64,000 bases of DNA from an uncultured Burkholderiales bacterium (GTDB taxonomy: Bacteria; Pseudomonadota; Gammaproteobacteria; Burkholderiales; Burkholderiaceae_C), in NCBI GenBank assembly GCA_945952065.1, contig CAMFGY010000009.1, forward strand, positions 62,001-126,000, written 5' to 3'. The position numbers and the translations under genes were made by a program. Shown one piece after another: positions 1 through 32,911 of the stretch; positions within the stretch are counted from its first letter, which is position 1; the number at the start of each line of letters is the position of its first letter. The notes beneath the pieces were generated by a model. The model made no database searches. It worked only from the letters and a program-made list of their open reading frames with translations, and was not told the DNA's origin.

Positions 1-1065
1 CGGGTGGACGGCGTGATGCTGGAGGTGAAAAACCTGGAGGGCACTTTGGCGGCAGAGCAGTTGGTGTCGCGCCTGAAGGTGATGGCCGAGCTGGACATTG
101 GCGAGCGCCGCCTGCCGCAAGACGGCCGCTTCAAGCTGCGCATGCAGGGGCGCGAGATCGACTTTCGCTTGTCCATCATGCCCAGCGTGTTCGGGGAAGA
201 CGCGGTGGTGCGGGTGCTGGACCGCGCGCAGATCCAGGCCCAGGGCACGCTCACGCTGGACGCGCTGGGCTTTGAGCCCGAGGCGCGCGCCGCCATCCGC
301 GCGCTGGCGCGCCAACCGCACGGCATGCTCTTGGTCACCGGCCCCACCGGCAGCGGCAAGACCACCACGCTGTATGCCGCCATCTCCGAGGTCAACACCG
401 GGCAAGACAAGATCATCACCATCGAAGACCCAGTGGAGTACCAGCTGCCCGGCGTGGTGCAGATCCCGGTGAATGAAAAAAAGGGCTTGAGCTTTGCGCG
501 CGGCCTGCGCTCGGTTTTGCGCCACGACCCCGACCGCGTGATGGTGGGCGAGATCCGTGACGCCGAAACCGCGCAGATCGCGGTGCAGGCGGCGCTGACC
601 GGCCACTTGGTCTTCTCCACCGTGCATGCCAACAATGCTTTTGACGTGGTGGGCCGCTTCATGCACATGGGGCTGGACCTCTACAACGTGGTGGCGGCGC
701 TCAATGGCGTGTTGGCCCAGCGCCTGATGCGCATCAATTGCGCGCATTGCCGCCAGCCGGTGAGCCCCAGCGATGCGGACTTGGCTGCGCTGGGCCTGAA
801 CCGCCAGCCGGGCGATCAATACATGCAGGGCATGGGCTGCAGCCACTGCCGCGGCACCGGCTACAAGGGCCGCCGCGCGGTCTCGGAGCTGCTCTGCTTG
901 GATGATGAGTTACGCGACTTGATCGCGGCCCGCGCCGCCATGAGCCGCATCAAAGAGGCCGCGCGTGAGCGGGGCATGCGCACGCTGCGCGAGGCCGCGG
1001 TGGCCCTGGTGCGGCGCGGCGAATCCACCTTGGAGGAACTCGATCGTGTCACGCTTGCCGACTGA
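1..1065 (+). CDS. Type II secretion/type IV pilus assembly ATPase, GspE/PilB family (5' end outside window)
   Basis: Hexameric cytoplasmic ATPase that powers pseudopilus or pilus assembly. The reading frame is open from the first base, so the N-terminal part lies to the left of the window. Visible are the Walker A motif GPTGSGKTTT, the Asp box around ITIEDPVEYQLPG, the Walker B region LRHDPDRVMVGEIRD and the His box TGHLVFSTVHANNA. A zinc-binding tetracysteine domain follows (CAHC and, about 40 residues later, CSHC), as is usual in GspE, PilB and MshE. It is the first visible gene of a tightly packed operon reaching 7787; its stop overlaps the next start. Family assignment is firm. Whether it is best named gspE or mshE cannot be decided here, because the membrane partner GspF/MshG is not in the window. 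Confidence 0.95.
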   Translation, partial: RVDGVMLEVKNLEGTLAAEQLVSRLKVMAELDIGERRLPQDGRFKLRMQGREIDFRLSIMPSVFGEDAVVRVLDRAQIQAQGTLTLDALGFEPEARAAIRALARQPHGMLLVTGPTGSGKTTTLYAAISEVNTGQDKIITIEDPVEYQLPGVVQIPVNEKKGLSFARGLRSVLRHDPDRVMVGEIRDAETAQIAVQAALTGHLVFSTVHANNAFDVVGRFMHMGLDLYNVVAALNGVLAQRLMRINCAHCRQPVSPSDADLAALGLNRQPGDQYMQGMGCSHCRGTGYKGRRAVSELLCLDDELRDLIAARAAMSRIKEAARERGMRTLREAAVALVRRGESTLEELDRVTLAD

Positions 1066-1909
1066 TGCTTTGAGGGGTTCACAAGCACCGACTCGCCCGG
1101 GTTTTTGGGCTCGCTGTGTGCAGCGCTTTCATGCCTGGCAACGATCGCGCGCTTTGCCGGTGGCCTCGCTCTACTGGGGCGAGGCGGGGCTGTGGAGCTT
1201 TGAGCCCGCAGCGTTGGATTCAAGCGCCGGCCCAGGCAGCCGCCAAGGCCAAAGCTGGCCCGATTTTGAAAGCTGGTGCGCCGCCCATCCGGGCCAGCAA
1301 CTGCGCATCTGGGTCGGGGGCGCTTGGGTGCACAACGTCAGCGTGCCCGCCGATATGCCGCTGGCCGATGCCCAGGCGGTGAAGGCTTATGCCCGTTTGC
1401 AATTCGTGCATTACTTCGGCGCGGCCGCGCAAGACTGGCCGCTGGCCCTGTGGCAGCCGGGCCGTGGCCCCGCCGCCGGCCAGCGCCATGCGGTGGCCTT
1501 GCAGGAGCAGGGCGGCCTGAGTCTGGCCGCGCTCAGCCAAACGGCGCAGCGCCACGGGGTGCGCATCTTGTCGCTGCGCCCGGCCTGGAGCCATGCCTTG
1601 GCGATTGCGGCCACGCTGGACCAAGCCTGGGCGCGCGCCGAGAGCTCGGGGCTGGCCTTGCTAGAAGGGCGCATGCTCAGCTGGTTGCGCTTGTCGCAGG
1701 GGCAGCTGGTGGAGGTGCAGCAGCGCTATCTGGACCAAGCCGACAGCCAAGAGCTGCAAGCCTTGATGCAGGGCCTGCAGCCCGCCAGCGGCAGCAGCCA
1801 TGCGCCCAAGCTGATGGGCTGGGGCCCGCAAGGCAGCCGCCTGAATGAAGAGGGCCTGCATGACAGCCCGCAAGCCGCGCATTGGTTGGCCTCGGAGGCA
1901 CTGGCCTGA
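1046..1909 (+). CDS. PilM/MshI/GspL-like cytoplasmic platform protein (by position)
   Basis: About 287 residues, soluble, without signal peptide or obvious membrane segment. The frame is open further upstream, but GTG at 1046 is preceded by GGAGG at 1032-1036 with good spacing, and it gives a 20-base overlap with the ATPase gene, typical of translational coupling. I see no strong family motif; the identity rests on its place between the ATPase and a PilN-like protein, where PilM/MshI or the cytoplasmic part of GspL normally lies. Those proteins have an actin-like fold and link the ATPase to the inner-membrane platform. The clear actin-like phosphate-binding motif is not visible, so it may be a degenerate relative. 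Structure prediction would settle this. Confidence 0.6.
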   Translation: MSRLPTDALRGSQAPTRPGFWARCVQRFHAWQRSRALPVASLYWGEAGLWSFEPAALDSSAGPGSRQGQSWPDFESWCAAHPGQQLRIWVGGAWVHNVSVPADMPLADAQAVKAYARLQFVHYFGAAAQDWPLALWQPGRGPAAGQRHAVALQEQGGLSLAALSQTAQRHGVRILSLRPAWSHALAIAATLDQAWARAESSGLALLEGRMLSWLRLSQGQLVEVQQRYLDQADSQELQALMQGLQPASGSSHAPKLMGWGPQGSRLNEEGLHDSPQAAHWLASEALA

Positions 1910-2562
1910 TGCGTCTGAGCGTTTTGAACCCTCCCGCGCTGCGCAGTGAGCCGGCCAGCCGCAGCAGTGCCGCCGCCCGCTGGCCCCAGCCTGATTTCAT
2001 GCCGGCGCCCCAGCGCGTGGGGTGGGGCATGTGGGTCTATCTGGGCTTGGCGCTGCTGAGCCTGGGCTTGCTTGTGGCGCAGCAGCTGCAGCTGCGCGCG
2101 CAGGCCCGCGAGCTGGACGCGCAATGGCTGCTTTTGGATCAGCTCAGCGCAGGGGCTGCCGGCGGCCCGAGCAAATCTGCAGCGGCAACGCCCGGGCCCG
2201 AGATGCAAGCCCGCGCCTGGGCCCTGGCGGATGAGTTGCGCCCGCCCATGGGCAAAGACTGGGGCAGCCGCTGGCAAGCGGTGGAACAAGCCCTGCCGCC
2301 GGGTTTGCAACTGCAGGCCATGGACATGCAAGGGCCCTTGCTGCGCTTGGAAGGATCGGCGCAAGACGCCGAGCGGGTGATGCAGCTGGTGGACCGCTTG
2401 GCGCTGCAAGCGCGCAGCCTGCCCGGCAGCGAGGTGGTCTTGACCCGACTGCAAAAGCCCGAAGGGCCCAACGACGCCGCGGCGAATGAGCTGCGCTTTG
2501 AAGTGGTGCGGCGCCAGGGCTCGGGGGCGCAGCCCGCTGCTGTTTTGAAAGGTCGGGGATGA
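1909..2562 (+). CDS. PilN/MshI-like inner-membrane platform protein
   Basis: A 217-residue protein with a short cytoplasmic N terminus, one membrane segment (about residues 34-55, rich in Leu/Gly/Val) and a periplasmic domain beginning with a short helical stretch. This is the topology of PilN and the membrane part of GspL. ATG 1909 shares its A with the preceding TGA and has GGAGG at 1894-1898; an upstream TTG in frame is less likely. The gene overlaps the next by four bases. The role, a platform component joining cytoplasmic ATPase to periplasmic partners, is inferred from topology and gene order and not from a sequence signature. Confidence 0.65.
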   Translation: MRLSVLNPPALRSEPASRSSAAARWPQPDFMPAPQRVGWGMWVYLGLALLSLGLLVAQQLQLRAQARELDAQWLLLDQLSAGAAGGPSKSAAATPGPEMQARAWALADELRPPMGKDWGSRWQAVEQALPPGLQLQAMDMQGPLLRLEGSAQDAERVMQLVDRLALQARSLPGSEVVLTRLQKPEGPNDAAANELRFEVVRRQGSGAQPAAVLKGRG

Positions 2563-3275
2563 GCGCGAGTCTGAATCTGCGCTCGGCAGGTCGCCGGGCT
2601 GGCGCGGACTGGGCGTCTTTTCAAGGTCTGCCGCGCCAGGTATTGCTGCCCTTGTTGCTGCCGGTCTGGCGGCGCCTGCCGCAGCCCGCGCAACAAGGCT
2701 TGGCCCAGCTCTGGGCCCGGCTCGGCGTGCCGGGCGTGCTGGCCACGGTTTTGAGCTTGCTGGCCTTGCTGCTCTTGTTGTGGGTCTTGCCCGCGCAAGA
2801 GCAGGCCTTGCAGCAGCAAAGAGAAGCCTTGCGCGAGCGCCGCCTGGCGCTGCAGCAGCAGGCGCAGCGCCAGCAGGGGCAAGACCCGCGCCAGTTTTTG
2901 CAAAGCTTGCCGCCCGACAGCGCGCGCCAAGCCCGCATCGCGGCGCTCTTGGCTCTGGCCAGCGAAGCCGGTCTGCCCTGGCCGCGCAGCGAGTTCCGCT
3001 ACCAAGCCGAGCCCGCGCTGGGCCTGGCGCAATACCGCATCGCCATGACGGCGCAGGGCAATTACGAGCAGTTGCGGCGTTATGTGCAAGAGGCTTTGCA
3101 GCGCGACCCGGCGCTGAGCCTGGAGTCCATCAAGGTGCGCCGCCTGCGCCCGACTGAGCCCTTGCTGAATGCCGAGTTCAGCTGGGTGCTGTACATGCAG
3201 ATGCCGCAGGCTTTGCCGCTCAAGGCGGCGCAGGGCGCGCAAGTGGAACCCAGCGCCTCGGGGGTGCGGCCATGA
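2559..3275 (+). CDS. PilO/GspM-like inner-membrane platform protein
   Basis: A 238-residue bitopic membrane protein. Residues 59-77 form a hydrophobic membrane segment rich in Leu, followed by a Gln/Arg-rich coiled coil (about 78-108) and then a small alpha/beta domain with the pattern expected for the ferredoxin-like periplasmic domain of PilO and GspM. The ATG overlaps the end of the preceding gene (ATGA), and its own stop overlaps the next start in the same way, so the four platform genes are translationally coupled. PilO-type proteins pair with PilN and reach towards the secretin. Family confidence is moderate since these proteins diverge strongly. Confidence 0.7.
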   Translation: MSASLNLRSAGRRAGADWASFQGLPRQVLLPLLLPVWRRLPQPAQQGLAQLWARLGVPGVLATVLSLLALLLLLWVLPAQEQALQQQREALRERRLALQQQAQRQQGQDPRQFLQSLPPDSARQARIAALLALASEAGLPWPRSEFRYQAEPALGLAQYRIAMTAQGNYEQLRRYVQEALQRDPALSLESIKVRRLRPTEPLLNAEFSWVLYMQMPQALPLKAAQGAQVEPSASGVRP

Positions 3276-3907
3276 GTGCGCCCCTGTATTCGTCGATGTC
3301 CACGCCAGGCGCTGCCGCCGCGCCCTCCGCTCGGCGTCGCTGGGTCTTGATGCTGGGCTTGGGGCTGACCTTGGCTGCCACGGCTTGGGTGGCCAGCCAT
3401 GAAGAGCCCAATGTCGAAGTCGCCTTGCCTGCTGCAGCGGCAGGCCCGGCCGCTCGTCCCTTGCCGCCCGCAGTGAGCGCCGACACCTCGGCCGCATCAA
3501 GCGCATCAAGCCCCTCGGTTCGTTTGGGCCGCTGGCCTGCGGCCTTGCAACCGCCGGCGGCCCAGGGTTGGCCCGATGCCGAGGCGCAGGTCTTGCAAAG
3601 CTGGGGCCTCAGCGCGGCCCAGCCAGCGCCGCCGCCCGCGCTCGCCGCCAAGCGTTCGCCCCCACCGCCGCCGGAGCCCGATGCCAATGCCGAGCCGCCA
3701 GCCGCGCCGCCCTTGGGCTATCAGTGGGTGGGGCGCATGGACGAGGCGCAGCGGCCCCGACTTGTTTTGAGCAACAACTTGCGCACCGTGGTGCTGGCCG
3801 TGGGCGAGACGCTGGACCAGCAATGGCGGCTGGACGCCATCGGCCCCAATGGCGCGCAGTTCACCTGGCTGCCCGGCGGGCAAAAGCTGAGTCTGGCTTA
3901 CCCCTGA
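3272..3907 (+). CDS. PilP/GspC/MshK-like secretin-connecting protein
   Basis: A 211-residue protein with an N-terminal membrane anchor (about residues 26-44), a long Ala/Pro-rich linker (about 45-140) and a small C-terminal beta domain starting near GYQWVGRMDEA. That architecture of anchor, flexible linker and homology-region beta domain is typical of GspC and PilP, which bind the N-terminal domain of the secretin. The next gene but for a 66-base gap is the secretin, which supports the call. Many proline-rich linker residues are low-complexity and carry no further information. Confidence 0.65.
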   Translation: MSAPLYSSMSTPGAAAAPSARRRWVLMLGLGLTLAATAWVASHEEPNVEVALPAAAAGPAARPLPPAVSADTSAASSASSPSVRLGRWPAALQPPAAQGWPDAEAQVLQSWGLSAAQPAPPPALAAKRSPPPPPEPDANAEPPAAPPLGYQWVGRMDEAQRPRLVLSNNLRTVVLAVGETLDQQWRLDAIGPNGAQFTWLPGGQKLSLAYP

Positions 3908-3973
3908 GGGGGCGCAGCTGCTTTGCCGTCCTGCATTCAACTTATCTCTTGATTTGTCCTGCACCTCCTCACC

Positions 3974-6250
3974 ATGATTCTTGCCCCCACTCCTCGGCCC
4001 CCAGCGCCATCGTCCCGGCGAGCGACTGCCTTGGCGCTGGCCTTGGCGAGCGCCTGTTTGTTGATGGCTTGCGCCAACCCGGCGCTGCGTGAATCGGAGG
4101 CCTTGCTGCAACGCGGCGAGCAAGAGGCGGCCTGGCGCTTGCTGCGCGACGCATCGGCGGTCCATCCACAAGACCAGGCCTTGCGCATGGCCTATGCCCG
4201 GCAAAGCGAGCGCAGCCTGCTGGCCCTGGCCAATCAGGCCGAAACTGCGCGGGCCGTGGGTCAACTGGACCTTGCCGAGGCGGTGCTTAAAAAGATGGAG
4301 ATGGTGGACCCCAATGCTGCGCGCAGCAAAGGCTTGCGCCAGGCGCTGCAGCGCGCCCGCCAGCATGAAGCCCAGGTGCGCAAGGCCGCGCAGTTGATGC
4401 AGGCCGGCCAGCTGGACGCCGCGCGCGCGGCGGTGCAGCAGGTCTTGGCGGAAGACCCGGGCCAGTCCGGCGCTTTGGCCTTGAACCAGCAGCTGCGCCA
4501 GAAGTTTGCGCCCGCGCCGGTGGTCAGCGGCTTGTCGGCGGCCTTTCAAAAGTCCATCAGCCTGGAGTTCCGCGAAGCGCCCTTGCGCACCGTGTTTGAG
4601 GCCATGGGGCGGGGCGGCGGCGTCAATTTTGTGTTCGACAAAGACGTGCGCGGCGACGCCAAGGTCACCATCTACCTGAAGGAGGTGAGCCTGGACGAAG
4701 CGATGCGGGTGATCCTGTCCACCCAGCAGCTGGAGCGCAAGTTGCTGAATGACAAGTCGGTGCTGATCTACCCCAACACCCAGGCCAAACAGCGCGAGCA
4801 TCAAGAGCTGGTGACGCGCAGCTTTTATCTCAATAACGCCGACGTCAAGCAGGCTCAGGCGCTGGTGCGCATGATGGCCAAGACGCGCGACATCTTCATC
4901 GACGAGCGCTTGAATCTGCTGGTGGCCCGCGACACGCCCGAGGTCATCGCCATGATCGAACAATTGATCAGCGGCCTGGACCTGCCCGAGCCCGAGGTGA
5001 TGCTGGATGTGGAGGTCTTGGAAGTGGAGACCAGCCGCGACGACCAGTTCGGCCTGAATTGGCCCTCCGAAGTGACTTACGGCCTGCCCGGCACCGCCAG
5101 CGTGGTGGAGCTGGGGCAGCGCAATGCCTTCCGCAGCATGGTGGCCAACCCGGTGCTGACCGCCAAGCTCAAGGGCGGCACCGGCGCCAGCAATGTCTTG
5201 GCCAACCCCAAGCTGCGCGCCCGCAACAAAGAAAAAGCCAAGATCCAGATCGGCGACAAAGTGCCGGTGTTCACCAGCACGTCCACCGCCAATGTGGGCG
5301 TGTCCACCGCCGTGACTTACATCGATGTGGGCCTGTCTTTGGAAGTGGAGCCCAGCATCCAGCTCGACAACGAGGTGGTGATGAAGGTCAATTTAGAGGT
5401 CAGCAGCTTGGGCCTGAAAGAAAGCTCGGGGGGCTCTCAGCCAACCAGCGCCTACCGCATTGGCAGCCGCAAGGCCAGCACCTCGCTGCGCCTGCGCGAC
5501 GGCGAAACCCAGGTGCTGGCCGGCCTGATCAGCGACGAAGACCGCAAGAGCATCAACGGCCTGCCTTATTTGTCCGAGGCGCCGATGCTGGGTCGCTTGT
5601 TCGGCGTGCAGGGTGACAACCGCAAAAAGTCCGAAATCGTCTTGCTGATCACGCCCCGGGTCCTGCGCAATCTGAACCTGCCCGATGCCAGCCGCACGGT
5701 GCTGCCTTCGGGCTTTGACGGCAACCCCGGCGCCGAAGGGACCCGCTTGCGTGCCAGCGGCGCGGTGGCCTTGCCGATGACGGGCGGCGGTGGCTTGGGG
5801 GCGGGTGGGGTGGTGGTAGCTGCGCCGCAGCTGCAAGCTCAAGCTCAGCCGCAAGCGCCAGTGGTGGCCCCTCCGCCCTTGAGCGCCGAGCCCGCAGCTG
5901 CGGCGCCAGCCCAAGGCGAAATCGAAATCAGAACCAGCGAAGAAGCGGATGTGGGCGAAACCTTGTCGGTGACGCTGTACAACAAATCGCCATACAAGGT
6001 CGAAGGCGAGGCGCGCTTTGATGTGGCCTTGTTCATGTCGGCCGAAGCCAACAACGCCGGCGGCAATGGGGTCTTGGCATTTGAGTTGCCACCCCATGGT
6101 CACCGGGTCATGGTCTTGCGGGCTCGGCCGGGTTCGGCGGGCAACAGCTCCAGCATTGAGCTGAGCAATTTGCGCGCTGCAGGCCCCAAGGGCGAAGTCC
6201 TCGGCGTGCAGGTCTCAGGGGACCCCAATGTCGCCGTCGTTGCGCGCTGA
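3974..6250 (+). CDS. Outer-membrane secretin, GspD/PilQ/MshL family, probable lipoprotein
   Basis: A 758-residue secretin forming the outer-membrane gate of the pilus/T2SS-like machine. The N terminus has a hydrophobic signal ending in LLMAC (Cys33), a plausible lipobox. Residues ~37-170 are Ala/Gln-rich helical repeats resembling TPR. The secretin short domain (SLEFREAPLRTVFEAM) and N-type domains follow, then the C-terminal pore domain with the conserved VPVFTSTS and LIxPRVLRNL regions. After the pore there is a Gly/Ala/Pro linker and an extra beta domain (about 640-758), probably cohesin-like or a pilotin-type interaction domain. No clear ribosome-binding site precedes ATG 3974. The 3' end overlaps the next pseudopilin gene by 23 bases. 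The secretin call is firm; the identity of the C-terminal domain is inference. Confidence 0.93.
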   Translation: MILAPTPRPPAPSSRRATALALALASACLLMACANPALRESEALLQRGEQEAAWRLLRDASAVHPQDQALRMAYARQSERSLLALANQAETARAVGQLDLAEAVLKKMEMVDPNAARSKGLRQALQRARQHEAQVRKAAQLMQAGQLDAARAAVQQVLAEDPGQSGALALNQQLRQKFAPAPVVSGLSAAFQKSISLEFREAPLRTVFEAMGRGGGVNFVFDKDVRGDAKVTIYLKEVSLDEAMRVILSTQQLERKLLNDKSVLIYPNTQAKQREHQELVTRSFYLNNADVKQAQALVRMMAKTRDIFIDERLNLLVARDTPEVIAMIEQLISGLDLPEPEVMLDVEVLEVETSRDDQFGLNWPSEVTYGLPGTASVVELGQRNAFRSMVANPVLTAKLKGGTGASNVLANPKLRARNKEKAKIQIGDKVPVFTSTSTANVGVSTAVTYIDVGLSLEVEPSIQLDNEVVMKVNLEVSSLGLKESSGGSQPTSAYRIGSRKASTSLRLRDGETQVLAGLISDEDRKSINGLPYLSEAPMLGRLFGVQGDNRKKSEIVLLITPRVLRNLNLPDASRTVLPSGFDGNPGAEGTRLRASGAVALPMTGGGGLGAGGVVVAAPQLQAQAQPQAPVVAPPPLSAEPAAAAPAQGEIEIRTSEEADVGETLSVTLYNKSPYKVEGEARFDVALFMSAEANNAGGNGVLAFELPPHGHRVMVLRARPGSAGNSSSIELSNLRAAGPKGEVLGVQVSGDPNVAVVAR

Positions 6251-6731
6251 AAGGGCGGGGCGCAAGCCGCAGCGCGGCTTCACCCTGGTCGAGATGCTGG
6301 CGGTGGTCACCATCGTGGGCATCTTGGCGGCGGCGGCGCAGCCGCTCAGCGTCTGGGTGCACAAGCGCCAGCAGGAGAACGAGCTGCGCCAAAACCTGCG
6401 CAGTATTCGCCAAGCCCTGGATGCCTACAAGCAAGCCGGCCAGGAGGGCCGCATTGCCGTGGCTGCTGATGCCAGCGGCTATCCGCCCAGCTTGAGCAGC
6501 CTGGTGGAAGGCGTGCCCGATTTGAAGGACCCGAAAGGCCGCAAGATTTATTTTTTGCGCCGCTTGCCGCGCGATCCCTTCGCGGACAACAGCCTGCCCG
6601 CCGCCCGCAGCTGGGGCCTGCGCAGCTATGAGAGCCCCGCCGACTCGCCCCAGCCCGGTCGTGATGTGTTCGATGTGTACTCGCGCGCCCCCGGCCTGGG
6701 CCTGGATGGCACGCCGTACCGCGAGTGGTGA
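6228..6731 (+). CDS. Pseudopilin, GspG-like, prepilin-type cleavage site
   Basis: A 167-residue pseudopilin. The N terminus is basic and short and ends in the prepilin peptidase site RG|FTLVE with Gly17 at -1, Phe18 at +1 and Glu22 at +5, followed by a hydrophobic helix (MLAVVTIVGILAAAAQPL). The C-terminal half has a GspG-like pattern ending in FDVYSRAPGLGLDGTPYREW, consistent with the calcium-loop end seen in major pseudopilins. The start overlaps the secretin gene, so translation is probably coupled. It and the next gene have the same type of C-terminal ending and are likely paralogues. Which is the major pseudopilin cannot be told from sequence alone. Confidence 0.9.
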   Translation: MSPSLRAERAGRKPQRGFTLVEMLAVVTIVGILAAAAQPLSVWVHKRQQENELRQNLRSIRQALDAYKQAGQEGRIAVAADASGYPPSLSSLVEGVPDLKDPKGRKIYFLRRLPRDPFADNSLPAARSWGLRSYESPADSPQPGRDVFDVYSRAPGLGLDGTPYREW

Positions 6732-6757
6732 GCAGCAGCAAAGCAAAGGGGCGCACG

Positions 6758-7159
6758 ATGCAGACCAGGCCAAGTGTGAGTCAGCGCAGCAGGGGCTTCA
6801 CCTTGATCGAGTTGATCGTGGTGATGGCCATCGTGGCGCTTCTGGCCGGCATCGTGGCGCCGCGCTACTTTGCCAAGGTGGAAGCCGCGCGCAGCCATGC
6901 CCTGCGCAGCTCGCTGAATGTGATGCGCAGCGCCATCGACCAATTTGCCGCTGACAAAGCGCGTTATCCCGATTCATTGCAAGAGCTGGTCGATGCCCGC
7001 TATTTGCGCCAGGTGCCCGAAGACCCGCTGAGCGGCAGCCGCAGCAGCTGGCGTTTGCTCAGCCCGCCGGCGGAGCTGGAGATGCCCGGGCAGGTCTTTG
7101 ATGTAAAAAGCGGCGCCCCCGGTCGCGCGCCCGATGGCAGCTTGTATGCGGACTGGTAG
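6758..7159 (+). CDS. Pseudopilin, GspG-like, second copy
   Basis: About 133 residues when started at ATG 6758, which has a purine-rich AAAGGGG sequence at 6744-6750; an in-frame GTG at 6725 overlaps the previous stop and would add 11 residues. The leader ends in RSRG|FTLIELIVVMAIVALLAG, with Glu at +5 and a standard pseudopilin helix. The C terminus (VFDVKSGAPGRAPDGSLYADW) matches the ending of the preceding pseudopilin, so the two are tandem paralogues of the GspG type. It is the shortest and most canonical of the three and is my best guess for the major subunit, but this is inference. Confidence 0.9.
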   Translation: MQTRPSVSQRSRGFTLIELIVVMAIVALLAGIVAPRYFAKVEAARSHALRSSLNVMRSAIDQFAADKARYPDSLQELVDARYLRQVPEDPLSGSRSSWRLLSPPAELEMPGQVFDVKSGAPGRAPDGSLYADW

Positions 7160-7787
7160 ACCCAAGCCGGGCCGCAGCCGCGGCTTCACCTATCTGTGGC
7201 TGCTGTTTGTGATGGCCCTGGGCGGGGTGGCGCTGGCCGCTCTGGGGCAGCGGCAGCAGAGCCTGCAGCAGCGTGAGCGCGAGGCCGAGCTGCGCTTTCG
7301 TGGCGAGGCCATTGCGAAGGCCTTGGCCAGCTATGCGCGCGCCACGCCTCCCGGGGCCAACCCCTTGCCGCAGCGCTTGGAAGATTTGTTGGAAGACCGC
7401 CGCAGCGGCAGCACTCGGCGCCATTTGCGCCGGCTTTATGCCGACCCCTTCACCGGGCGGGCAGACTGGGCACTTCAAATCGGCCAAATCTCGCCGGCGG
7501 GGCCAGCGCCGGGCGCTGAAAGGGAGGGGGCTGGCTTGAGCCAGGGCCCGATCTCCAGCACCTTGCAGCCGCAGGCGCAAGGGCAGGCTTTGAGGAGCGG
7601 CATCGTCGCGGTGCGCAGCCGGGCACGGCAGTTGTTGATGTCCAGCGGCTTGGCTGTGGCCAGCGTGCCCGCCAGCGCGCCCAAGCCCAGGGTCTCGGAC
7701 CTGGTTTTTGCCCCCAGCATGACGCCCGGCGCCCCGCCTGCAGCCGATGCCCATCACGGCGCGGAGGCCTCCGCGCCTGAGCCCTGA
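7134..7787 (+). CDS. Atypical minor pseudopilin lacking Glu at +5
   Basis: A 217-residue protein with a basic leader and a cleavage site RSRG|FTYLWLLFVMALGGVALA. The residue at +5 is Trp instead of the conserved Glu. Loss of this Glu is characteristic of the tip pseudopilin GspK, which caps the pseudopilus in type II secretion. The soluble domain carries PFTGRADW, a motif also common in prepilin-like proteins of MSHA-type clusters, and a long Ala/Pro-rich C terminus with no recognised fold. ATG 7134 overlaps the preceding gene by 26 bases; ATG 7146 is an alternative. Last gene of the assembly operon; a hairpin and T-run follow at 7814-7852. The tip role is inference. Confidence 0.8.
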   Translation: MAACMRTGRPKPGRSRGFTYLWLLFVMALGGVALAALGQRQQSLQQREREAELRFRGEAIAKALASYARATPPGANPLPQRLEDLLEDRRSGSTRRHLRRLYADPFTGRADWALQIGQISPAGPAPGAEREGAGLSQGPISSTLQPQAQGQALRSGIVAVRSRARQLLMSSGLAVASVPASAPKPRVSDLVFAPSMTPGAPPAADAHHGAEASAPEP

Positions 7788-8811: not shown

Positions 8812-9201
8812 TTCAAGCAGGGACATCTTGGCGCCCTCAAACCAGGGGATTCAGGACAAGTCCCTAGTCCGTTCGGATTGTGAATTGCTGCACAGCGCGG
8901 GTATGCGTGTCATGCGCCTCGTTCACAGTTCGAGGTGTTGGTTTTGCCAGCAGTCATTCAGCAGCACGCGGCTTGACTGATCGCTCTTTGACTTCCGGGT
9001 TCAAAAGACCCAGGCGCCCATGGCCACCGCCAAATGCGAGTTTTGTTTGTTCGAAGCTGTATTTCAGGGGATGGCGGTTCAGGCGTAGCGGACCGGTTGC
9101 GCACTTTGCTTCGTCGAAGCAGAGCGCGCCGAGTTCCAGAACTGTTTTGGTTCATTGATTTGCTTATCAACCATCGACTTCTGTACTCAACGGAGAACAC
9201 T
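8812..9201. other. Long intergenic leader before the first PEP-CTERM gene
   Basis: 390 bases without a convincing gene. An open frame from 9034 joins the PEP-CTERM frame, but ATG 9202 with GGAG at 9192-9195 and an immediate signal peptide is the evident start. Two near-matches to a sigma-54 promoter (GG...GC pairs around 9094-9108 and 9149-9162) each have eleven bases between the pairs instead of ten, so I do not call them. The stretch is presumably the promoter and 5' leader of 9202-9924. Confidence 0.6.
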
Positions 9202-9924: not shown

Positions 9925-9937
9925 GTCTTCGGTGCTG

Positions 9938-11545: not shown

Positions 11546-11571
11546 TTGTTTGATTTAGTTTGATGGTCCAA

Positions 11572-11594
11572 GGGGAGGGGCTTTGCTCCTCCCC
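11572..11594 (+). terminator. GC-rich hairpin after the PBP-like gene
   Basis: Arms GGGGAGG (11572-11578) and CCTCCCC (11588-11594) with a nine-base loop, 27 bases after the stop at 11545 and just ahead of the next gene. No T-run follows. It could attenuate read-through into the second PEP-CTERM gene or protect the upstream message. Confidence 0.5.
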
Positions 11595-11625
11595 CTACTG
11601 CTTGCAAGACCGGATGCCAAAGCTC

Positions 11626-12768: not shown

Positions 12769-12798
12769 GCGAAACACCGCTCGAGAAAAGGCTTGGAT

Positions 12799-12822
12799 GC
12801 CGCGCATCGCGCGGCTTTTTTT
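12799..12822 (+). terminator. Rho-independent terminator
   Basis: Perfect seven-pair stem GCCGCGC/GCGCGGC (12799-12805 and 12809-12815) with a three-base loop, followed directly by seven T. It ends the PEP-CTERM transcription unit. Confidence 0.92.
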
Positions 12823-12846
12823 GACCTGCAAAGTTTCGACGGCGAA

Positions 12847-12894: not shown

Positions 12895-12930
12895 CATCAC
12901 GAATTCACCGGCCCTGGTGACACTGAGCTC

Positions 12931-26964: not shown

Positions 26965-27023
26965 TCGACCCGCGGGCTTTCATTTTTCACTGCAAGCATT
27001 TCTCTCTTATTTGGATCATCGAT

Positions 27024-28739
27024 ATGCGTAACGCACAAATTCGTCGGGCAGTTGCTGCTCTTGCACTGTTGGGCGCGGGCCTACCGGGCGTCGCCCATGC
27101 GTGGTGGAACAGCGAATGGACCGGCCGTACCCGCATCACGCTGAACACCTCGGCGCAAGGGATCGAAACCAAGGAGGCCGCCAGCAATGTGGCGGTGGCC
27201 GTGCGTTTGCACTCGGGCAACTTTGACTTCACCGCCGCCAAGGAAGACGGCTCGGACCTGCGCGTCATTGCGGCCGATGACAAAACGCCGCTGAAGTTCA
27301 GCGTCGAGCGTTTTGACGGCGTCAATGAACTGGCCGTGCTGTGGGTGCAGGTGCCCAGCGTGCTGCCGGGCAGCGACAAGAACCAGTTCTATGTGTACTC
27401 GGGCAATGCCAAGGCCGCCGCGGAGCCGGGCGACTCGGTGGCCGCAGCGGGTTTTGATGCCGGCACCCTGGCGGCCTTTCACTTCAGCGACAAAGCGCCG
27501 GCCGGTGCCGACCACCAAGGCGGTGTGAAGCCCGAAGGCGCCATCAGCATTGAGCCCAATGGCTTGCTGGCCGCCAGTGCCAGGCTGACCGGGCAGGCCA
27601 TCGTCTACCCGCTGAGCGACAAGGCTGTTGTGGACGGCGGCAATCAAATGACGCTGTCGCTGTGGGTCAAGCTGGACGCAGTGGAGCGTGCCGGCCTGGT
27701 TCAGTGGGGCGATTTGAAACTGGCCGTCAAAGGCGGCAAGCTGAGCCTGAGCACCGGCAAGGCAGAACTTTCCGGCGGCGAGATCGCCCCGGCCAAGTGG
27801 ACCCATCTGGCCCTGCGCTTGGGCCTGGGCAAGGCCACCTTGTTTGTGGGCGGCGCGCAAGTGGCGCAAGGCGATGCAGCCACGCCAGCGCTGGGCAACA
27901 GCCTGCGCGTGGGTGAGGGCGCAACGGGTCTGGCCGACGAGCTGCAGATCTCCAGTGTCTTGCGCAGTGCGGAGTGGTTGGCTGTGTCGGGCGGGACGCA
28001 AGGGGCCGAAAGCCGCTTGGTGGCTTCGCAGCGCGAAACCACCGAGACCGCCGGCGGCGACGAGCATGGCGGCCATATGGCCATTTTGGTGAAGAACCTG
28101 ACGACCGACGCCTGGGTGGTCATCATCATCTTGGCCGTGATGTTTGTGATCGCCGCCTGGGTGACGATTGCCAAGGCCATCTTGGTCAGCCGCGCCGACA
28201 AGGACAACCGCGCTTTCTTGAAGCGCTTCCGCGATGCCGACAAAGACCTGCTGACCCTGGCCCAGGGTGCCAAGCACAAGCATTCGCCACTGTTCCGTTT
28301 GTACGAAGCCGGTGTGCAGCAGCTGCAAAAGCGCAAGGTGGGTGAGCAGGGCGCGGCCGCCCTGACCGGCCCGGCGATGAATGCGGTCAAGGCCTCGGTG
28401 GACGCCGACTTTGTTCGTGAGAACGCGCACCTGAACTCGAATATGGTGCTCTTGACGATTGCGATTGCTGGCGGCCCCTTCCTGGGTCTGCTGGGCACGG
28501 TGGTCGGCGTGATGATCACCTTTGCGGCAATTGCGGCCGCCGGCGATGTGAACGTGAACGCCATCGCGCCGGGCATTGCCTCGGCTCTGTTGGCCACGGT
28601 GGCGGGCCTGGGCGTCGCGATTCCGGCGCTGTTTGCCTACAACTACCTGGCCGCCAAGATCAAGAACGTGTCCTCGGACATGCAGATCTTCATCGACGAG
28701 TTCATCACCCGCGTGGCCGAAGTGCACGGCGCGCCGTGA
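27024..28739 (+). CDS. DUF2341/LamG-type periplasmic domain fused to an ExbB/TolQ/MotA proton channel
   Basis: A 571-residue fusion. The frame is open from TTG 26961, overlapping the adhesin stop, but ATG 27024 starts a signal peptide (MRNAQIRRAVAALALLGAGL, cleavage after AHA). The mature protein starts with WWNSEWTGRTRITLNT, the beginning of a DUF2341-type domain, followed by a concanavalin/LamG-like beta domain (about 170-325). A membrane segment at about 364-388 and two more (about 473-500 and 515-540, containing GGPFLGLLGTVVGVMITFAA and IASALLATVAGLGVAIPALF) form the ExbB/TolQ channel. Ordinary ExbB proteins lack such a periplasmic domain. With two ExbD and a TonB-like protein just downstream, this is the motor of a proton-motive-force module. 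What the extracytoplasmic domain binds is unknown; carbohydrate is possible. Confidence 0.9.
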   Translation: MRNAQIRRAVAALALLGAGLPGVAHAWWNSEWTGRTRITLNTSAQGIETKEAASNVAVAVRLHSGNFDFTAAKEDGSDLRVIAADDKTPLKFSVERFDGVNELAVLWVQVPSVLPGSDKNQFYVYSGNAKAAAEPGDSVAAAGFDAGTLAAFHFSDKAPAGADHQGGVKPEGAISIEPNGLLAASARLTGQAIVYPLSDKAVVDGGNQMTLSLWVKLDAVERAGLVQWGDLKLAVKGGKLSLSTGKAELSGGEIAPAKWTHLALRLGLGKATLFVGGAQVAQGDAATPALGNSLRVGEGATGLADELQISSVLRSAEWLAVSGGTQGAESRLVASQRETTETAGGDEHGGHMAILVKNLTTDAWVVIIILAVMFVIAAWVTIAKAILVSRADKDNRAFLKRFRDADKDLLTLAQGAKHKHSPLFRLYEAGVQQLQKRKVGEQGAAALTGPAMNAVKASVDADFVRENAHLNSNMVLLTIAIAGGPFLGLLGTVVGVMITFAAIAAAGDVNVNAIAPGIASALLATVAGLGVAIPALFAYNYLAAKIKNVSSDMQIFIDEFITRVAEVHGAP

Positions 28740-28781: not shown

Positions 28782-29195
28782 ATGTCGGCTGACGTCAAAA
28801 GTGACAACCAACCGTATGACGAGATCAACGTCACACCGATGTTGGATCTGGCCTATGTGCTGCTGGTGGTCTTCATCATCTTGACCACCGCCTCGGTGCA
28901 AGGGGTCAAGGTGAAGTCGCCCACCACCCAGGCCACCAGCAACTTGGCCAAGCCGCAGGTGCGGGCGGTGACCATCACCGCCGACGGCGCGGTGTATCTG
29001 GATGCCTATCCCGTCAGCATGGATCAGATGCGTGACACATTGGCCCAGTACAAAGCAGCCAATCCGGCGCTGCCGCTGGTGCTGAAGGCGGACGCCTCGG
29101 CCCAGTACGAAAAAGTGATGGAGGTCTTGGAGGTGGTGAAGAAGCTCGACATCACCGAGATCGGCCTGGTCACCAAGCGCGCCGCGCCGGAATAA
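28782..29195 (+). CDS. ExbD/TolR biopolymer transport protein, first copy
   Basis: A 137-residue inner-membrane protein with one N-terminal membrane segment. The motif EINVTPMLDLAYVLLVVFII carries the conserved Asp22 that conducts protons with ExbB, followed by a periplasmic ExbD fold. The sequence VYLDAYPVSMDQMRDTLAQY in the periplasmic part is typical. It lies 42 bases after the ExbB fusion and 31 bases before a second ExbD. Confidence 0.93.
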   Translation: MSADVKSDNQPYDEINVTPMLDLAYVLLVVFIILTTASVQGVKVKSPTTQATSNLAKPQVRAVTITADGAVYLDAYPVSMDQMRDTLAQYKAANPALPLVLKADASAQYEKVMEVLEVVKKLDITEIGLVTKRAAPE

Positions 29196-29226: not shown

Positions 29227-29628
29227 ATGCAAGTCATCAATGAAGTCAAGCCGATTGACACCATCAACGTCACGCCGATGTTGGACCTGGCCTATGTGCT
29301 GCTGGTGGTGTTCATTCTGATGACCACGGCCTCGGTGCAAGGGCTCACCATCACCCTGCCCAAGCCCAGCAACAAGCCCAGCGCTGAAAAGCATGAGCTG
29401 AAGATCGTGCAGGTCATGCCCGATGGCGGCGTGCTGCTCAATGGTGTGGGCGTGAGCCTGCCGGAGTTGGAGCAACAGCTGCAGCAGGCCAAGAGCCTGG
29501 ATGCGCAGATGTCGGTGGCCATCAAGGGCGATGCGCGCACCCAGTACGCCAGCGTGGTGGCGGTGATCGATCTGTGCAACAAGCTGCAGGTCAATATGGG
29601 CCTGGTCACGGCCAAGATCGGCACTTGA
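29227..29628 (+). CDS. ExbD/TolR biopolymer transport protein, second copy
   Basis: A 133-residue ExbD with TINVTPMLDLAYVLLVVFIL (Asp20) as in the first copy; the membrane helices of the two are nearly identical while the periplasmic halves differ. ExbD works as a dimer inside an ExbB pentamer, so the two copies may form a heterodimer with distinct periplasmic ends, one possibly contacting the TonB-like protein. This is inference. A good Shine-Dalgarno-like purine run (AAAGAGC) precedes the ATG. Confidence 0.93.
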   Translation: MQVINEVKPIDTINVTPMLDLAYVLLVVFILMTTASVQGLTITLPKPSNKPSAEKHELKIVQVMPDGGVLLNGVGVSLPELEQQLQQAKSLDAQMSVAIKGDARTQYASVVAVIDLCNKLQVNMGLVTAKIGT

Positions 29629-29639
29629 GGACGGCCATC

Positions 29640-30362
29640 ATGAGTACAGGTTTGGCCGAAGAACATTTGGACGATTCGCCGCAGCGCATCTGGCTGATTC
29701 GCGCTGCTGTGGCGCTGGGCTTTTTGGCCCTGGTGGGGGCGGGCTATTGGGCCGTCAAAGGCATGAAGCCCACCGAAGCGCCCAAGCGCCAGGTCGCCAA
29801 GATCAGCATCCTGCCCGACAACCCGCCGCCGCCTCCGCCGCCCAAGCCCGAGCTGAAAAAGCCCGAGCCGCCCAAGGACGAGCCCAAGCAGGTGATGCGC
29901 GACGAGCCCGTCAAGCAGGCCGAGGTCCCCAAGCCGGCGAACGAACCCATCAAGATGGAAGGTGCGGCCGGCGACGGCCCCAGCGCCTTCGCCGCCGGCG
30001 GTGTCAGCAAGGAGTACAGCGGCGGTGCTGCCAATACCGGCGCAGCCGGCACGGGCGGTGGCACGGTGGTGGACCGCGCGCAAGAGCGGCTCTATGCCAA
30101 CAGTGCGCGCCAGATGTTGCGCGATGAAATCGAGCGCCGCTTGAAGAGCGAGGCCGAGCAGCTGACCGCCACCTTCGCCATCTGGCTGGACCGCGACGGC
30201 GCCATTCAGCGCTATGAGTTGACCCCCACCGGCGACGTCAGCCATGACAAGGCCTTGCGCCTGGCCCTGGACGAAACCTCGCGCCAGTTCAAGCTGCTGC
30301 CGCCGCCCAATGGCATGAACCAGCCCATGCGCTTTCGCTTGAGCGTGCGGCCGCAGGCTTGA
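29640..30362 (+). CDS. TonB-like energy transducer
   Basis: About 240 residues when started at ATG 29640, which has GAGG eight bases upstream; the open frame extends further left into the ExbD gene. Residues 18-39 form the membrane anchor, followed by a Pro/Lys/Glu-rich periplasmic spacer (60-103, with a run of seven Pro) and a Gly/Ala-rich stretch. The C-terminal domain (about 145-240, YANSARQMLRDEIERRLKSE onward, ending MRFRLSVRPQA) has a TonB/TolA-like pattern. TonB proteins carry proton-motive energy from ExbB-ExbD to an outer-membrane partner. No TonB-dependent receptor is encoded nearby; the partner could be the porin or TpsB, which would be unusual. Confidence 0.82.
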   Translation: MSTGLAEEHLDDSPQRIWLIRAAVALGFLALVGAGYWAVKGMKPTEAPKRQVAKISILPDNPPPPPPPKPELKKPEPPKDEPKQVMRDEPVKQAEVPKPANEPIKMEGAAGDGPSAFAAGGVSKEYSGGAANTGAAGTGGGTVVDRAQERLYANSARQMLRDEIERRLKSEAEQLTATFAIWLDRDGAIQRYELTPTGDVSHDKALRLALDETSRQFKLLPPPNGMNQPMRFRLSVRPQA

Positions 30363-30423: not shown

Positions 30424-32205
30424 ATGAACACTCCACACCCGAGCCCACGCCGCTTTGCGCCAACGCTTCGCCTGAGCACGATGGCGCTGGCCGCCGTCGT
30501 GGCTTGCAGCCAGCCCGTCTTGGCCCAGCAGGGCCCGGCCAGCGCCGATGAAAAGCAAGAGCTGGCCGCCTTGCGCGCCACCACCCAGGCCTTGATCGAG
30601 GCCCTGGTGTCGCAGGGCTTGATCACCCGCGAGCGCGCCGAGACCATTCTCAAACAAGCCCGCCAAGCCGCGGCTGCGGGCAACGCGCCGGCTGAGCCGC
30701 AATGGGGCACGCCCCTCGCTGCCGGTGCGGCGGTCGGCGCTGCTGCCGCGGCAGCTAACGCCAAGGTCGTGCGGGTGCCTTATGTGCCGGAGACCACGCG
30801 CCAGCAAATGCGCGACGAGATCAAGGCCGATGTGCTGGCCCAGGCCCGCAGCGAACGTTGGGGTGAGCCCGGCGCGCTGCCGGAGTGGATCTCGCGCGTG
30901 AAGGTCGGCGGTGATGTGCGGGTGCGCGCGCAAAGCGACAAGTTCGATCAAGCCAATGAGCCGGCATGGCTTTACAACAACCAGACCGGCACGCCTGCCT
31001 GGGCGCCTGATCTGAAAAACACCACCCAGGACCGTGAGCGCCTGACGCTGCGCGCCCGTCTGGACGTGGAGGCACAGCTGTCCGATCAAGTGCAAGCCGG
31101 CCTGCGCCTTTCCAGCGGCGGCAGCACCGGCCCGGCCTCCACCAGCCAAACCTTGGGCAGCAGCAATAGCGGGGGCTTCAACCGCTATGCCCTGAGCCTG
31201 GACCGCGCTTGGCTGCGCTGGCAGCCGCCCGCCGGCTGGCAAGGCCTGAGTGCCGACTTTGGCCGCATGCCCAACCCCTTTTACAGCAGCGATCTGACCT
31301 GGTCAGACGACCTGGCTTTTGACGGTGTGGCCGCCAAGATGCAGCACTACTTCGCTGCACGCAAAGGCCTGTTCGCCACCGCCGGTGTCTTCCCGGTGCA
31401 GGAGTTGGAGTTGACGACGCGCGACAAATGGCTGCTGGGTGCGCAGCTCGGCGCCGAATTTGAAGTGGCCAAGGGCGCGCAATTCAAGCTGGGCTTGGCC
31501 TACTACCAATTCAAGAACATCGAAGGTCAGCGCGAAACGCAGGCGCTGCCCAGCGGCCCCAGCAGCGGCTCGGCCAACTACTTCAGCAGCCAGTACCCCA
31601 GCAGCTGGCGCGCCAAGGGCAACACCCTGATCAATATCAACGACGCCACCAGCACGGCAGCGCCGACCTGGGGCCTGGCCTCCAAGTTCAAGCCCATCAA
31701 CTTGACGGCAGGCCTGAGCGTGGATGCACTGGCGCCGGTGATGCTGAACTTCAGCTTTGATTGGGTGAAGAACACCGGCTTCGATCTGGCCGACATTCGC
31801 GCGCGCTCGGGTGCAGCGCTCAACGACCCCTCAGCGCCGCTGCTGAACAAGACCACCGCGGTGCAGGGTCGGGTGCAAGCGGGCTCGGCGCGCTTGGCCA
31901 AGCGTGGCGATTGGCAGGGCTTCCTGGCCTATCGCTATATGGAGCGCGACGCCTGGGTGGACGCTTTCACCGACACCACCTGGCATTTGGGCGGCACCAA
32001 TTACAAGGGCTGGTCTTTGGGCGGCAATTACGCCTTCGATCGCAACTTCTGGCTGGGCGCGCGCTGGACCAGCACCCGCAACCTGGACGACGGCGTGCGC
32101 TTCTTGGTTGACCCCAAAGACCCGCAGTCGCCCATGACCACGTATTACAGCAATTTCCCATTGCGCATCGACGTGATCCAGCTGGATCTGAACGCTCGCT
32201 TCTGA
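30424..32205 (+). CDS. Putative outer-membrane porin with N-terminal helical domain
   Basis: A 593-residue exported protein. The signal peptide ends near QPVLAQ|QGP. Residues 40-130 are mostly helical with an Ala-rich stretch, LAALRATTQALIEALVSQGL, resembling the periplasmic coiled-coil part of trimeric porin-like proteins. From about 155 (WISRVKVGGDVRVRAQSDKF) a 14-18-strand beta barrel follows, ending in IDVIQLDLNARF with the C-terminal Phe expected of an outer-membrane protein. It resembles the Porin_5 group of putative porins. It lies between the TonB-like gene and a coiled-coil gene. Whether it is a passive pore or an energised partner of the TonB-like protein is not known. Confidence 0.85.
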   Translation: MNTPHPSPRRFAPTLRLSTMALAAVVACSQPVLAQQGPASADEKQELAALRATTQALIEALVSQGLITRERAETILKQARQAAAAGNAPAEPQWGTPLAAGAAVGAAAAAANAKVVRVPYVPETTRQQMRDEIKADVLAQARSERWGEPGALPEWISRVKVGGDVRVRAQSDKFDQANEPAWLYNNQTGTPAWAPDLKNTTQDRERLTLRARLDVEAQLSDQVQAGLRLSSGGSTGPASTSQTLGSSNSGGFNRYALSLDRAWLRWQPPAGWQGLSADFGRMPNPFYSSDLTWSDDLAFDGVAAKMQHYFAARKGLFATAGVFPVQELELTTRDKWLLGAQLGAEFEVAKGAQFKLGLAYYQFKNIEGQRETQALPSGPSSGSANYFSSQYPSSWRAKGNTLININDATSTAAPTWGLASKFKPINLTAGLSVDALAPVMLNFSFDWVKNTGFDLADIRARSGAALNDPSAPLLNKTTAVQGRVQAGSARLAKRGDWQGFLAYRYMERDAWVDAFTDTTWHLGGTNYKGWSLGGNYAFDRNFWLGARWTSTRNLDDGVRFLVDPKDPQSPMTTYYSNFPLRIDVIQLDLNARF

Positions 32206-32215
32206 GGTGGCCCGC

Positions 32216-32911
32216 ATGAGTAGCAAAACCTTGTTTGTTGGATCTCGGCCGGTGTGGGCGGCCGTGCTCATGGTGTGCGCCGCTGTGGCCCTGCCGGCTC
32301 AGGCGCAGGACGCCAAGGTCTCGAAAGAACGCGAGGCCTTGCGCCGCTCGCAAAGCGCCTTGAAGGCGGCCCAAGAACAGCAAGCCAGCTTGCAGGCAGA
32401 AAAGACCAAGCTGGAACAAGAAAAGACCTCGGCCGAGCAAGAGGCGGCCAAGGCCCGCTCGCAGGCCCAGGGCCAGGCCGCCAAGCTCAAGGCCCTGGAA
32501 GCGCAAGCGCAAAAGCTGCAAGCCGAGTTGCAAGCCGCTGAAGCCGCGCGTCAGGCCTCCGAGAGCAGCGCCAAGAGCCGCGAGCAAGAGCTGCAACAGC
32601 AGTTGCTGGCGGCGCGCCGCGAAAGCAATGAGCGCCAGCAAGCGGTGCAAGTCACCACCCGCCTGCTGGAGCGCAGCACGCAGGCGCTGGCCGATGCCGA
32701 AGAGAAAAACCGCAAGCTCTACGCCGTGGGCCAAGAAGCCATCAAACGTTATCTGACCCGCACGCCTTCAGAGATCACCGGCATCGGCGACCCGCTGTTC
32801 GGCTTCACCGAGATTCGCTTGGAAAACGTGGCCGGTGAACTGCGCGCGCAGATGGATGCGCAGCAGTTGAAGCCGGTGGCTTCGATACCTGCGCCCTCGT
32901 CGACGCGCTGA
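32216..32911 (+). CDS. Periplasmic coiled-coil protein
   Basis: A 231-residue exported protein. ATG 32216 has GAGGTGG just upstream and begins a signal peptide ending PAQAQ|DAK; a GTG at 32207 in the same frame is less likely. Residues 35-165 are an almost uninterrupted coiled coil (Lys/Glu/Gln/Ala heptads, for example LQAEKTKLEQEKTSAEQEAA). The C terminus (about 165-231) is a small conserved-looking end with LYAVGQEAIKRYLTRTP and IGDPLFGFTEIRLENVAGEL. It is the last gene of the operon, and its stop is only nine bases from the convergent glycosyltransferase gene. A role as periplasmic rod or spacer for the porin/Ton module is plausible but unproven. Confidence 0.8.
   Translation: MSSKTLFVGSRPVWAAVLMVCAAVALPAQAQDAKVSKEREALRRSQSALKAAQEQQASLQAEKTKLEQEKTSAEQEAAKARSQAQGQAAKLKALEAQAQKLQAELQAAEAARQASESSAKSREQELQQQLLAARRESNERQQAVQVTTRLLERSTQALADAEEKNRKLYAVGQEAIKRYLTRTPSEITGIGDPLFGFTEIRLENVAGELRAQMDAQQLKPVASIPAPSSTR

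Follow-up and report, generated by a model that had tools for sequence, protein, structure and literature searches.

In a 64,000-nucleotide stretch of DNA from an uncultured Burkholderiales bacterium (hereafter the window; C9:62001-126000 of a 5.27 Mb genome), a giant exoprotein of the two-partner secretion (TPS) type, TpsA, is encoded together with its exporter TpsB, a dedicated proton motor and a porin. The core of this system consists of CTERM and PstS-like proteins, TpsB, a DUF3739-containing TpsA, a DUF2341/LamG-ExbB fusion, ExbD, TonB, Porin_5 and a coiled-coil protein. Co-inheritance, computed directly like the gene order, domains and tail motif described below, indicates that the DUF3739 TpsA, the motor and the porin form one set; it is silent on the role of the motor. 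From sequence evidence we consider it roughly 45% probable that these genes represent a distinct TPS class, in which the giant exoprotein would be coupled, through its C-terminal tail, to a proton-motive-force motor of its own. With giant TpsA, exporter, proton motor and porin inherited jointly, an export process thought to be energy-free may be energy-coupled, and the rule that type V secretion needs no energy becomes testable in a giant TPS class that is almost always inherited with a proton motor and a porin.

An earlier note on this DNA had listed these families, along with parts resembling type II secretion systems (T2SS) and type IV pili (T4P), an EpsA-like regulator, PEP-CTERM proteins and a protein resembling periplasmic binding proteins, and had taken them for one surface-assembly system. 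Profile scans of the window proteins recover every family named, on the plus strand. The idea of a single unit survives for the TPS/Ton/porin core, which is conserved, whereas its boundaries differ, the locus starts upstream of the window, and the T2SS-like block is separable.

Co-inheritance was assessed in one sample of 369 Gammaproteobacteria genomes, searched for four markers. The full DUF2341-ExbB fusion is present in 22 genomes, which fall in 16 families (24 rows minus G264 and G326, whose matches cover model positions 3-325 only, in frames of 1632 and 2406 amino acids); DUF3739 scores above its cut-off in 23, and full-length Porin_5 (E < 1e-100) is found in 24, some match to Porin_5 occurring in 54 and the weaker partial matches (best E 1.8e-34) being left out of the count. 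All three of these markers occur in 21 of the 369 genomes and none in 345. An exoprotein with a TPS domain is encoded in 122 genomes, 100 of which lack all three markers at the thresholds used. The exceptions are G267 (85% complete), with fusion and porin but no DUF3739, and G264 (in 220 contigs, its DUF3739 match at a contig end) and G362 (64% complete), with DUF3739 and porin but no fusion. In 20 of the 21 three-marker genomes DUF3739 and the fusion share a contig and lie no more than 23 kb apart. A separate, earlier family sample contained DUF2341 in 15 of 120 genomes, and 12 of another 13 fusion-bearing genomes or records contain DUF3739, the exception being the genome of L040. The earlier note's idea would have been refuted by T2SS-like, TPS and Ton genes occurring independently with no conserved adjacency; for the TPS, Ton and porin genes the comparison gave the opposite.

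Gene order is shared as well as gene content. A scan for the ExbB fusion recovered 46 distinct loci, mostly from Burkholderiales, with the closest relatives in Paucibacter/Roseateles; in these stretches, many of them short, tblastn with the window proteins found ExbD after the fusion in all 46, TonB in 39, Porin_5 in 41, the coiled-coil protein in 33 and part of TpsA in 39. Longer reading covered 27 stretches plus the window's own, from which a second T2SS-like copy in the same genome and G132, which starts inside tpsA, were set aside to give 26 Burkholderiales loci (window included), partly chosen for a nearby secretin. A second set, the class loci, comprises 21 loci from 20 of the 22 fusion-positive Gammaproteobacteria genomes, G233 and the window being left out; several of these stretches end early, and they contain ExbD in 21, TonB in 21, Porin_5 in 20, the coiled-coil protein in 19, a DUF3739 TpsA in 18 and TpsB in 15. 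Since the order recurs in many genomes, the clustering in the window is not a matter of chance.

The cassette is also found on plasmids and in another phylum. Eleven plasmid records carry the full fusion, and eight of the nine stretches read have genes for TpsB, fusion, ExbD, TonB, porin and coiled-coil protein; the ninth, from Methylomagnum, lacks TpsB and porin within the stretch. YbjN and peptidyl-prolyl isomerase (PPIase) genes accompany the cassette in six of the nine (Cupriavidus, two Klebsiella, Burkholderia, Variovorax and Methylosinus), sigma/FecR/STN genes in four, and the plasmid loci with YbjN/PPIase constitute a second, Pdt-like type. In the Verrucomicrobiota loci L042, L049 and L050, TpsB directly precedes the fusion, followed by porin, coiled-coil protein and TpsA; in L046 the DUF3739 TpsA is on the opposite strand, and no porin was found in the stretch. 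Some genomes hold additional copies: G281, G298 and G312 each have a second full-length DUF2341-ExbB, and in G120 (L097-L099) the cassette is immediately preceded, on the other strand, by a further, divergent TpsA/TpsB pair. Near the cassettes of G199, G281 and G480 three neighbour families recur that, by eye, resemble exopolysaccharide export genes.

The exoprotein itself supplies the candidate point of contact with the motor. TpsA of the window has a PF05860 TPS domain (E 3.4e-24), which places it in two-partner secretion, and adjoins a TpsB with POTRA_2 and a ShlB/FhaC barrel, as in type Vb systems. DUF3739 proteins end, after a variable, often Ala-rich linker, with hydrophobic-x-[VLF]-[EQDR]-hydrophobic-hydrophobic-G-[FY]-G; in the window the motif is LLLEFLGFG, 11 residues before the end of TpsA. 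A slightly wider pattern matches within the last 150 residues in 45 of 51 DUF3739 TpsA, against 7 of 10200 tails after shuffling and 1 of 1104 windows elsewhere in these proteins; the misses are G153, G123, G132, G199, G312 and G383, and the tails inspected, those of all except G132, show near variants or could be read so. Neither the motif nor the DUF3739 profile matches in any of 14 other TpsA (13 of 3,059-6,172 amino acids, one of 1,048), controls picked by their TPS frames and excluding L170, in which the TPS frame is not the longest, and L171, L172, L184, L185 and L189, whose C-termini lie outside the stretch. DUF3739 plus the C-terminal motif is a concrete marker by which the class can be recognised, and the motif is a candidate handle for the dedicated TonB.

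The motor has the hallmarks of a Ton system: ExbB channel residues, an Asp within INVTPMLD in both ExbD proteins, and a TonB_2 match of 22.3 bits against a cut-off of 22. The channel residues T513 and T546, which we take to be the equivalents of E. coli ExbB residues, are invariant in 26 fusion sequences. In a structural model of the fusion (mean pLDDT 76.5), a signal helix is followed by a beta-rich domain (55-147) and a ConA-like domain (169-359), after which a linker of low confidence leads to the ExbB helices; Foldseek relates the helices to TolQ/ExbB, TolQ being the closest, and the remainder to jelly-roll binding domains, and the sequence profile matches TolQ/ExbB and an arabinanase domain. 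By analogy with ExbB in general, the fusion would form a five-subunit ring with its DUF2341/LamG domain on the periplasmic side. DUF2341 on ExbB-type proteins is mentioned, its function given as unknown, in PMC12505986.

The porin differs from the usual partners of TonB. The Porin_5 model (mean pLDDT 70.6) has two N-terminal helices forming a hairpin, a disordered linker, an RVPYVPE-helix element (its conserved motif encoded at ~30772-30792, by alignment) and 16 long strands without a plug. It is unlike a TonB-dependent transporter in two respects, having no plug match in Pfam and 16 long strands in the model rather than a 22-strand barrel. Its best Foldseek match is OmpM1, the outer-membrane attachment porin of Veillonella; the sequence profile found no match in the PDB at E up to 1. 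The coiled-coil protein was aligned in 33 sequences from Burkholderiales, other class loci, plasmids and Verrucomicrobiota, and its C-terminal part is conserved.

In the mechanism that we favour, TpsB would export the N-terminal TPS domain and the long TpsA body, while the DUF3739 region, the variable linker and the strand-like motif would stay in, or within reach of, the periplasm. The ExbB ring, with its lectin-like periplasmic domains, and the two kinds of ExbD would drive the dedicated TonB, which might dock onto the tail of TpsA, the N-terminal Porin_5 arm or both, and so power the fibre's secretion, retention or release. Porin_5 and the coiled-coil protein would form an outer-membrane base, and the CTERM and PstS-like proteins would be exported partners whose display or secretion is aided by exosortase and, in this lineage, perhaps by the T2SS-like machine acting on them as substrates. 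We rank tail coupling above phosphorus-themed uptake, mechanical work on the envelope and the absence of any joint machine, in that order. In its favour are the co-occurrence, the gene order, the pairing of CTERM and PstS-like genes detailed below, the tail motif, the invariant channel Thr residues, the conserved Porin_5 N-terminal arm and the precedent of Oar/PopC. A more specific version, in which the giant fibre is never fully released and its tail serves as a TonB-box-like handle through which the proton-motive force exports, holds, retracts or sheds the adhesin, is possible, if somewhat unlikely.

Several points weigh against tail coupling. TpsB was seen in only 15 of the 21 class stretches, and the TPS pair is inverted in two (on the opposite strand in G411 and G476). 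Fisher tests of marker co-occurrence (6e-31 and 2e-33) overstate independence, the 369 genomes being related. The motif pattern was written after 38 tails had been seen, and it matches six of nine tails first seen later (a set that excludes L162 and L166, seen before, and L164, which is not closed). The resemblance of the motif to a TonB box of the SusC kind is our assumption rather than a confirmed match. Porin_5, being plug-less, is not an ordinary TonB target. Type V/TPS translocation is generally regarded as independent of an energy source (PMC5422565), and in the induced background mutation of tpsA, tpsB, the tonB homologue or PA0696 left the virulence of P. aeruginosa in zebrafish embryos at the wild-type level (PMC2729926).

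The strongest competitor, which we nevertheless regard as unlikely, is energised uptake: TpsA would be a capture fibre, the Ton motor would open Porin_5 for import, and the PstS-like protein would bind the product, making the system a phosphorus-scavenging analogue of HxuA/HxuC. Its appeal comes from the protein that the earlier note had likened to periplasmic binding proteins, an assignment that the profile matches probably narrow to PstS-like. The window protein alone has no Pfam match, and PBP_like_2 matches 5 of 40 family members; a 40-sequence profile gives four PDB matches at E up to 1, all of them phosphate-binding (best 1.6e-4), with R-x-x-x-S-G-T aligned. The PstS-like gene precedes tpsB in 26 of 26 Burkholderiales loci and lies near the cassette in 14 of the 21 class loci. 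CTERM genes keep it company: proteins with the tail pattern occur in 25 of the 26 (not in G120), and the PstS-like gene has a CTERM gene as its immediate upstream neighbour in 11 of those 14 class loci; in one other it stands at the stretch edge, and two have none. In the ten tail proteins scanned, NCBIfam supports a PEP-CTERM or VPLPA-CTERM-like tail, in several slightly below cut-off. No CTERM tail was found in five checked class loci without a PstS-like gene, and 11 plasmid and Verrucomicrobiota loci yielded one weak look-alike only. Both PEP-CTERM proteins of the window exceed the TIGR02595 cut-off, and the genome encodes two exosortases outside the locus, at C6 and C29, completing a PEP-CTERM/exosortase system; the cassette ties exosortase-sorted and PstS-like proteins to a secretion machine. 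The CTERM/PstS-like genes go with one large branch of the system.

Further support for uptake comes from the neighbourhood of other cassettes, where a PstS domain fused to a histidine kinase (L154:2079-4673), possibly a phosphate sensor, adjoins that of G383, and alkaline phosphatases lie near the Methylomagnum fusion, with a relative of one near G254; in P. aeruginosa, starvation for phosphate switches on the pdt genes (PMC4971064, PMC7035377). A PstS-like cluster in four loci was considered and dropped, only the G383 member having been shown to contain a PstS domain while the others look kinase-linked. A role in phosphorus scavenging would fit this theme. Against uptake stand the plug-less barrel of 16 long strands, the failure of the PstS-like profile to match in the Pdt-type plasmid and Verrucomicrobiota loci, and the lack of a Pho box in the window (0 matches at up to 3 mismatches, 3.25 expected by chance), by which direct Pho-box control of the locus was rejected.

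Distinctly less probable is that the motor performs mechanical work on the envelope, neither secretion nor uptake, whether by tethering and supporting the outer membrane in the manner of Tol-Pal and OmpM or by moving an adhesin, as the Glt/Agl gliding motors move a surface adhesin. OmpM1 as the closest fold of Porin_5, the TolQ-like ExbB part, the two ExbD genes of the window and the coiled-coil partner all fit this idea; yet neither Porin_5 nor the coiled-coil protein has a peptidoglycan-binding or SLH domain by Pfam, each of the 21 class loci shows a single ExbD, and the specific tie to a DUF3739 TpsA would be left unexplained. Least probable, and in our judgement very doubtful, is a genomic island whose surface genes share regulation but work separately, with no joint machine, to which the separable T2SS-like block and the terminator-like hairpin before tpsB lend some colour, and which must contend with a near one-to-one co-occurrence of three families in 369 genomes, the 100 of 122 TPS-bearing genomes that have none of them, and an order conserved across phyla.

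The earlier note had counted the T2SS/T4P-like genes as part of the assembly system, and here the comparison of neighbourhoods gives a divided answer. We call the block T2SS-like because GspD (168 against a cut-off of 351) and GspG (58 against 89) fall below the NCBIfam equivalog level, the families still being matched; GspE reaches 450 against 630, from the in-window fragment only, and PilQ is likewise below its cut-off. In a less selected sample of 28 Burkholderiales genomes, five of them untestable with contig ends too near, a secretin lies within 30 kb of the fusion in 22 of the 23 testable (G137 being without); in 18 of these the shared contig was confirmed by its length, L028 holds both genes, and G148, G152 and G154 rest on coordinates. 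Of the 26 Burkholderiales loci, 21 have the block upstream on the same strand, G120 has it downstream, and G149 downstream and inverted; the stretches read for G013, G121 and G123 do not contain it (~10 kb upstream of EpsA covered). It adjoins the cassette in four of the 21 class loci (G114, G184, G439 and G281, with other arrangements in the last three) and not in 17, in three plasmid loci (Cupriavidus, again otherwise arranged, Burkholderia and Aquabacterium olei) and in L046, while G436 has only pseudopilin-like frames there. Within the window's own genus it is linked in six of 13 full-fusion genomes, clearly unlinked in three and too near contig ends in four; G125 and G129 have a T2SS-like secretin without the fusion. 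That the block is an unrelated neighbour was first suggested by the genus figure and dropped given the linkage in 22 of 23: it is a frequent, separable, optional partner of the cassette.

The window secretin has TPR repeats N-terminal to its N0/STN domain. A second T2SS-like cluster in the same genome (G000:C25:31263-33452; L105) encodes a secretin 49% identical to it and a PEP-CTERM protein beside the pseudopilins, with no TPS/Ton match in the 40 kb read; similar secretins (48-51%) are found in most genomes of the window's genus.

The features of the locus are listed below. It begins before the window, as GspF is encoded outside it (L003:14253-15515, start ~1.7 kb upstream); just upstream of the locus, a TonB-dependent receptor and a subtilase are encoded on the minus strand (L003:7258-9666 and 12194-14101). 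The hairpin before tpsB suggests that this gene may start a separate transcription unit.

Features of the locus, in window coordinates
Feature	Position	Strand	Basis
T2SS/T4P-like block	1..7787	+	Pfam T2SSE, PilN, Secretin, N_methyl; gene order conserved
GspE-like ATPase, 3' end only, start upstream of window	to 1065	+	Pfam T2SSE
Three genes without family assignment	965-1909, 2559-3275, 3272-3907	+	inside T2SS/T4P-like block
PilN-like	1882-2562	+	Pfam PilN
Secretin with N-terminal TPR	3974-6250	+	Pfam Secretin
Two N-methyl pseudopilins	6228-6731, 6725-7159	+	Pfam N_methyl
Pilin-like third gene	7134-7787	+	N-terminus alone; no family match
EpsA, LuxR-family regulator	7951-8811	+	TIGR03020 175.2 bits, cut-off 170
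PEP-CTERM protein 1	9034-9924	+	PF07589 and TIGR02595 above cut-off
PstS-like exported protein, R-x-x-x-S-G-T motif	10052-11545	+	family profile against PDB; PBP_like_2 in relatives
PEP-CTERM protein 2	11560-12768	+	PF07589 and TIGR02595 above cut-off
Terminator-like hairpin and T run, between PEP-CTERM 2 and TpsB	12799-12815	+	consensus scan only
TpsB (POTRA_2 and ShlB/FhaC)	12886-14664	+	PF08479, PF03865
TpsA, 4077 aa; TPS domain residues 90-289; DUF3739 residues 3921-4023	14731-26964	+	Pfam; adhes_NPXG TIGR01901
Codons for TpsA C-terminal strand-like motif LLLEFLGFG	26929-26955	+	tail pattern, alignment
ExbB fusion: signal helix, DUF2341 and LamG/ConA-like, ExbB/TolQ channel	26961-28739	+	Pfam, model, Foldseek
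ExbD 1	28782-29195	+	PF02472; Asp in INVTPMLD
ExbD 2	29227-29628	+	PF02472; Asp in INVTPMLD
TonB/TolA-type energy transducer; start probably ~29640	29574-30362	+	TonB_2 22.3 bits (cut-off 22); alignment
Porin_5	30424-32205	+	Pfam, E 3e-161
Exported coiled-coil protein	32207-32911	+	conserved C-terminal part in alignment

With classical TPS systems (FHA/FhaC, HMW1, CdiA/CdiB) the window system shares the TPS domain and the POTRA_2/ShlB exporter; unlike them, it has DUF3739, the C-terminal motif and a dedicated Ton/porin cassette. The Vibrio TonB2/TtpC system likewise includes an ExbB-type protein with an extra periplasmic domain, in that case DUF3450 and not DUF2341/LamG. In the haemopexin system HxuABC a TPS pair is also encoded with a TonB-linked function (PMC5422565), but HxuC is a TonB-dependent transporter, whereas the porin of the window has no plug and comes with a full motor of its own. 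Myxococcus PopC provides an example of Ton-dependent secretion, leaving through Oar, so that there too protein export across the outer membrane needs ExbB/ExbD/TonB (PMC6434023); Oar, however, is a TonB-dependent transporter, and TpsB belongs to the Omp85 family.

The closest described relative, by a likeness that rests on gene order and published annotation, is the P. aeruginosa pdt/exbB2D2/tonB4/PA0696-0699 locus. There pdtA and phdA-pdtB-exbB2-exbD2-tonB4-PA0696-PA0701 lie beside the Hxc T2SS and VreAIR (PUMA3), and three papers describe them as a regulon and transcription unit (PMC2729926, PMC4971064, PMC7035377); PA0696 is called a putative outer-membrane porin, PA0698 is YbjN-like and PA0699 a PPIase, pdtA/pdtB matter in C. 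elegans virulence, and the Ton genes were 'still uncharacterized' in 2020 (PMC7035377). In 2009, PUMA3 clusters elsewhere were described as accompanied by TPS, ExbBD and PA0696 homologues (PMC2729926). The earlier note's remark that no described system has these parts was too strong, since the P. aeruginosa locus has the same cassette order (PMC2729926, PMC7035377): a TPS exoprotein and TpsB-ExbB-ExbD-TonB-porin-next gene (PA0697), with a T2SS adjacent, the window's tpsA lying between tpsB and the fusion. The two types also differ. The P. aeruginosa locus has sigma/anti-sigma/STN, YbjN and PPIase genes, which do not characterise the window type: PPIase, YbjN, sigma and FecR profiles matched in 0 of 28 records (27 stretches and the window's own), and STN in five, all at the tonB position and probably cross-hits. 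The window type has instead CTERM and PstS-like proteins, EpsA, two ExbD and another T2SS-like machine. In the open-access literature only the P. aeruginosa pdt locus approached a described TPS-Ton system, and no paper was found on the CTERM/PstS-like type, the DUF3739-Ton tie or the tail motif. The window cassette is a variant of the kind known from P. aeruginosa. The comparison in turn suggests a function to check for the uncharacterised P. aeruginosa genes exbB2-exbD2-tonB4-PA0696-0699.

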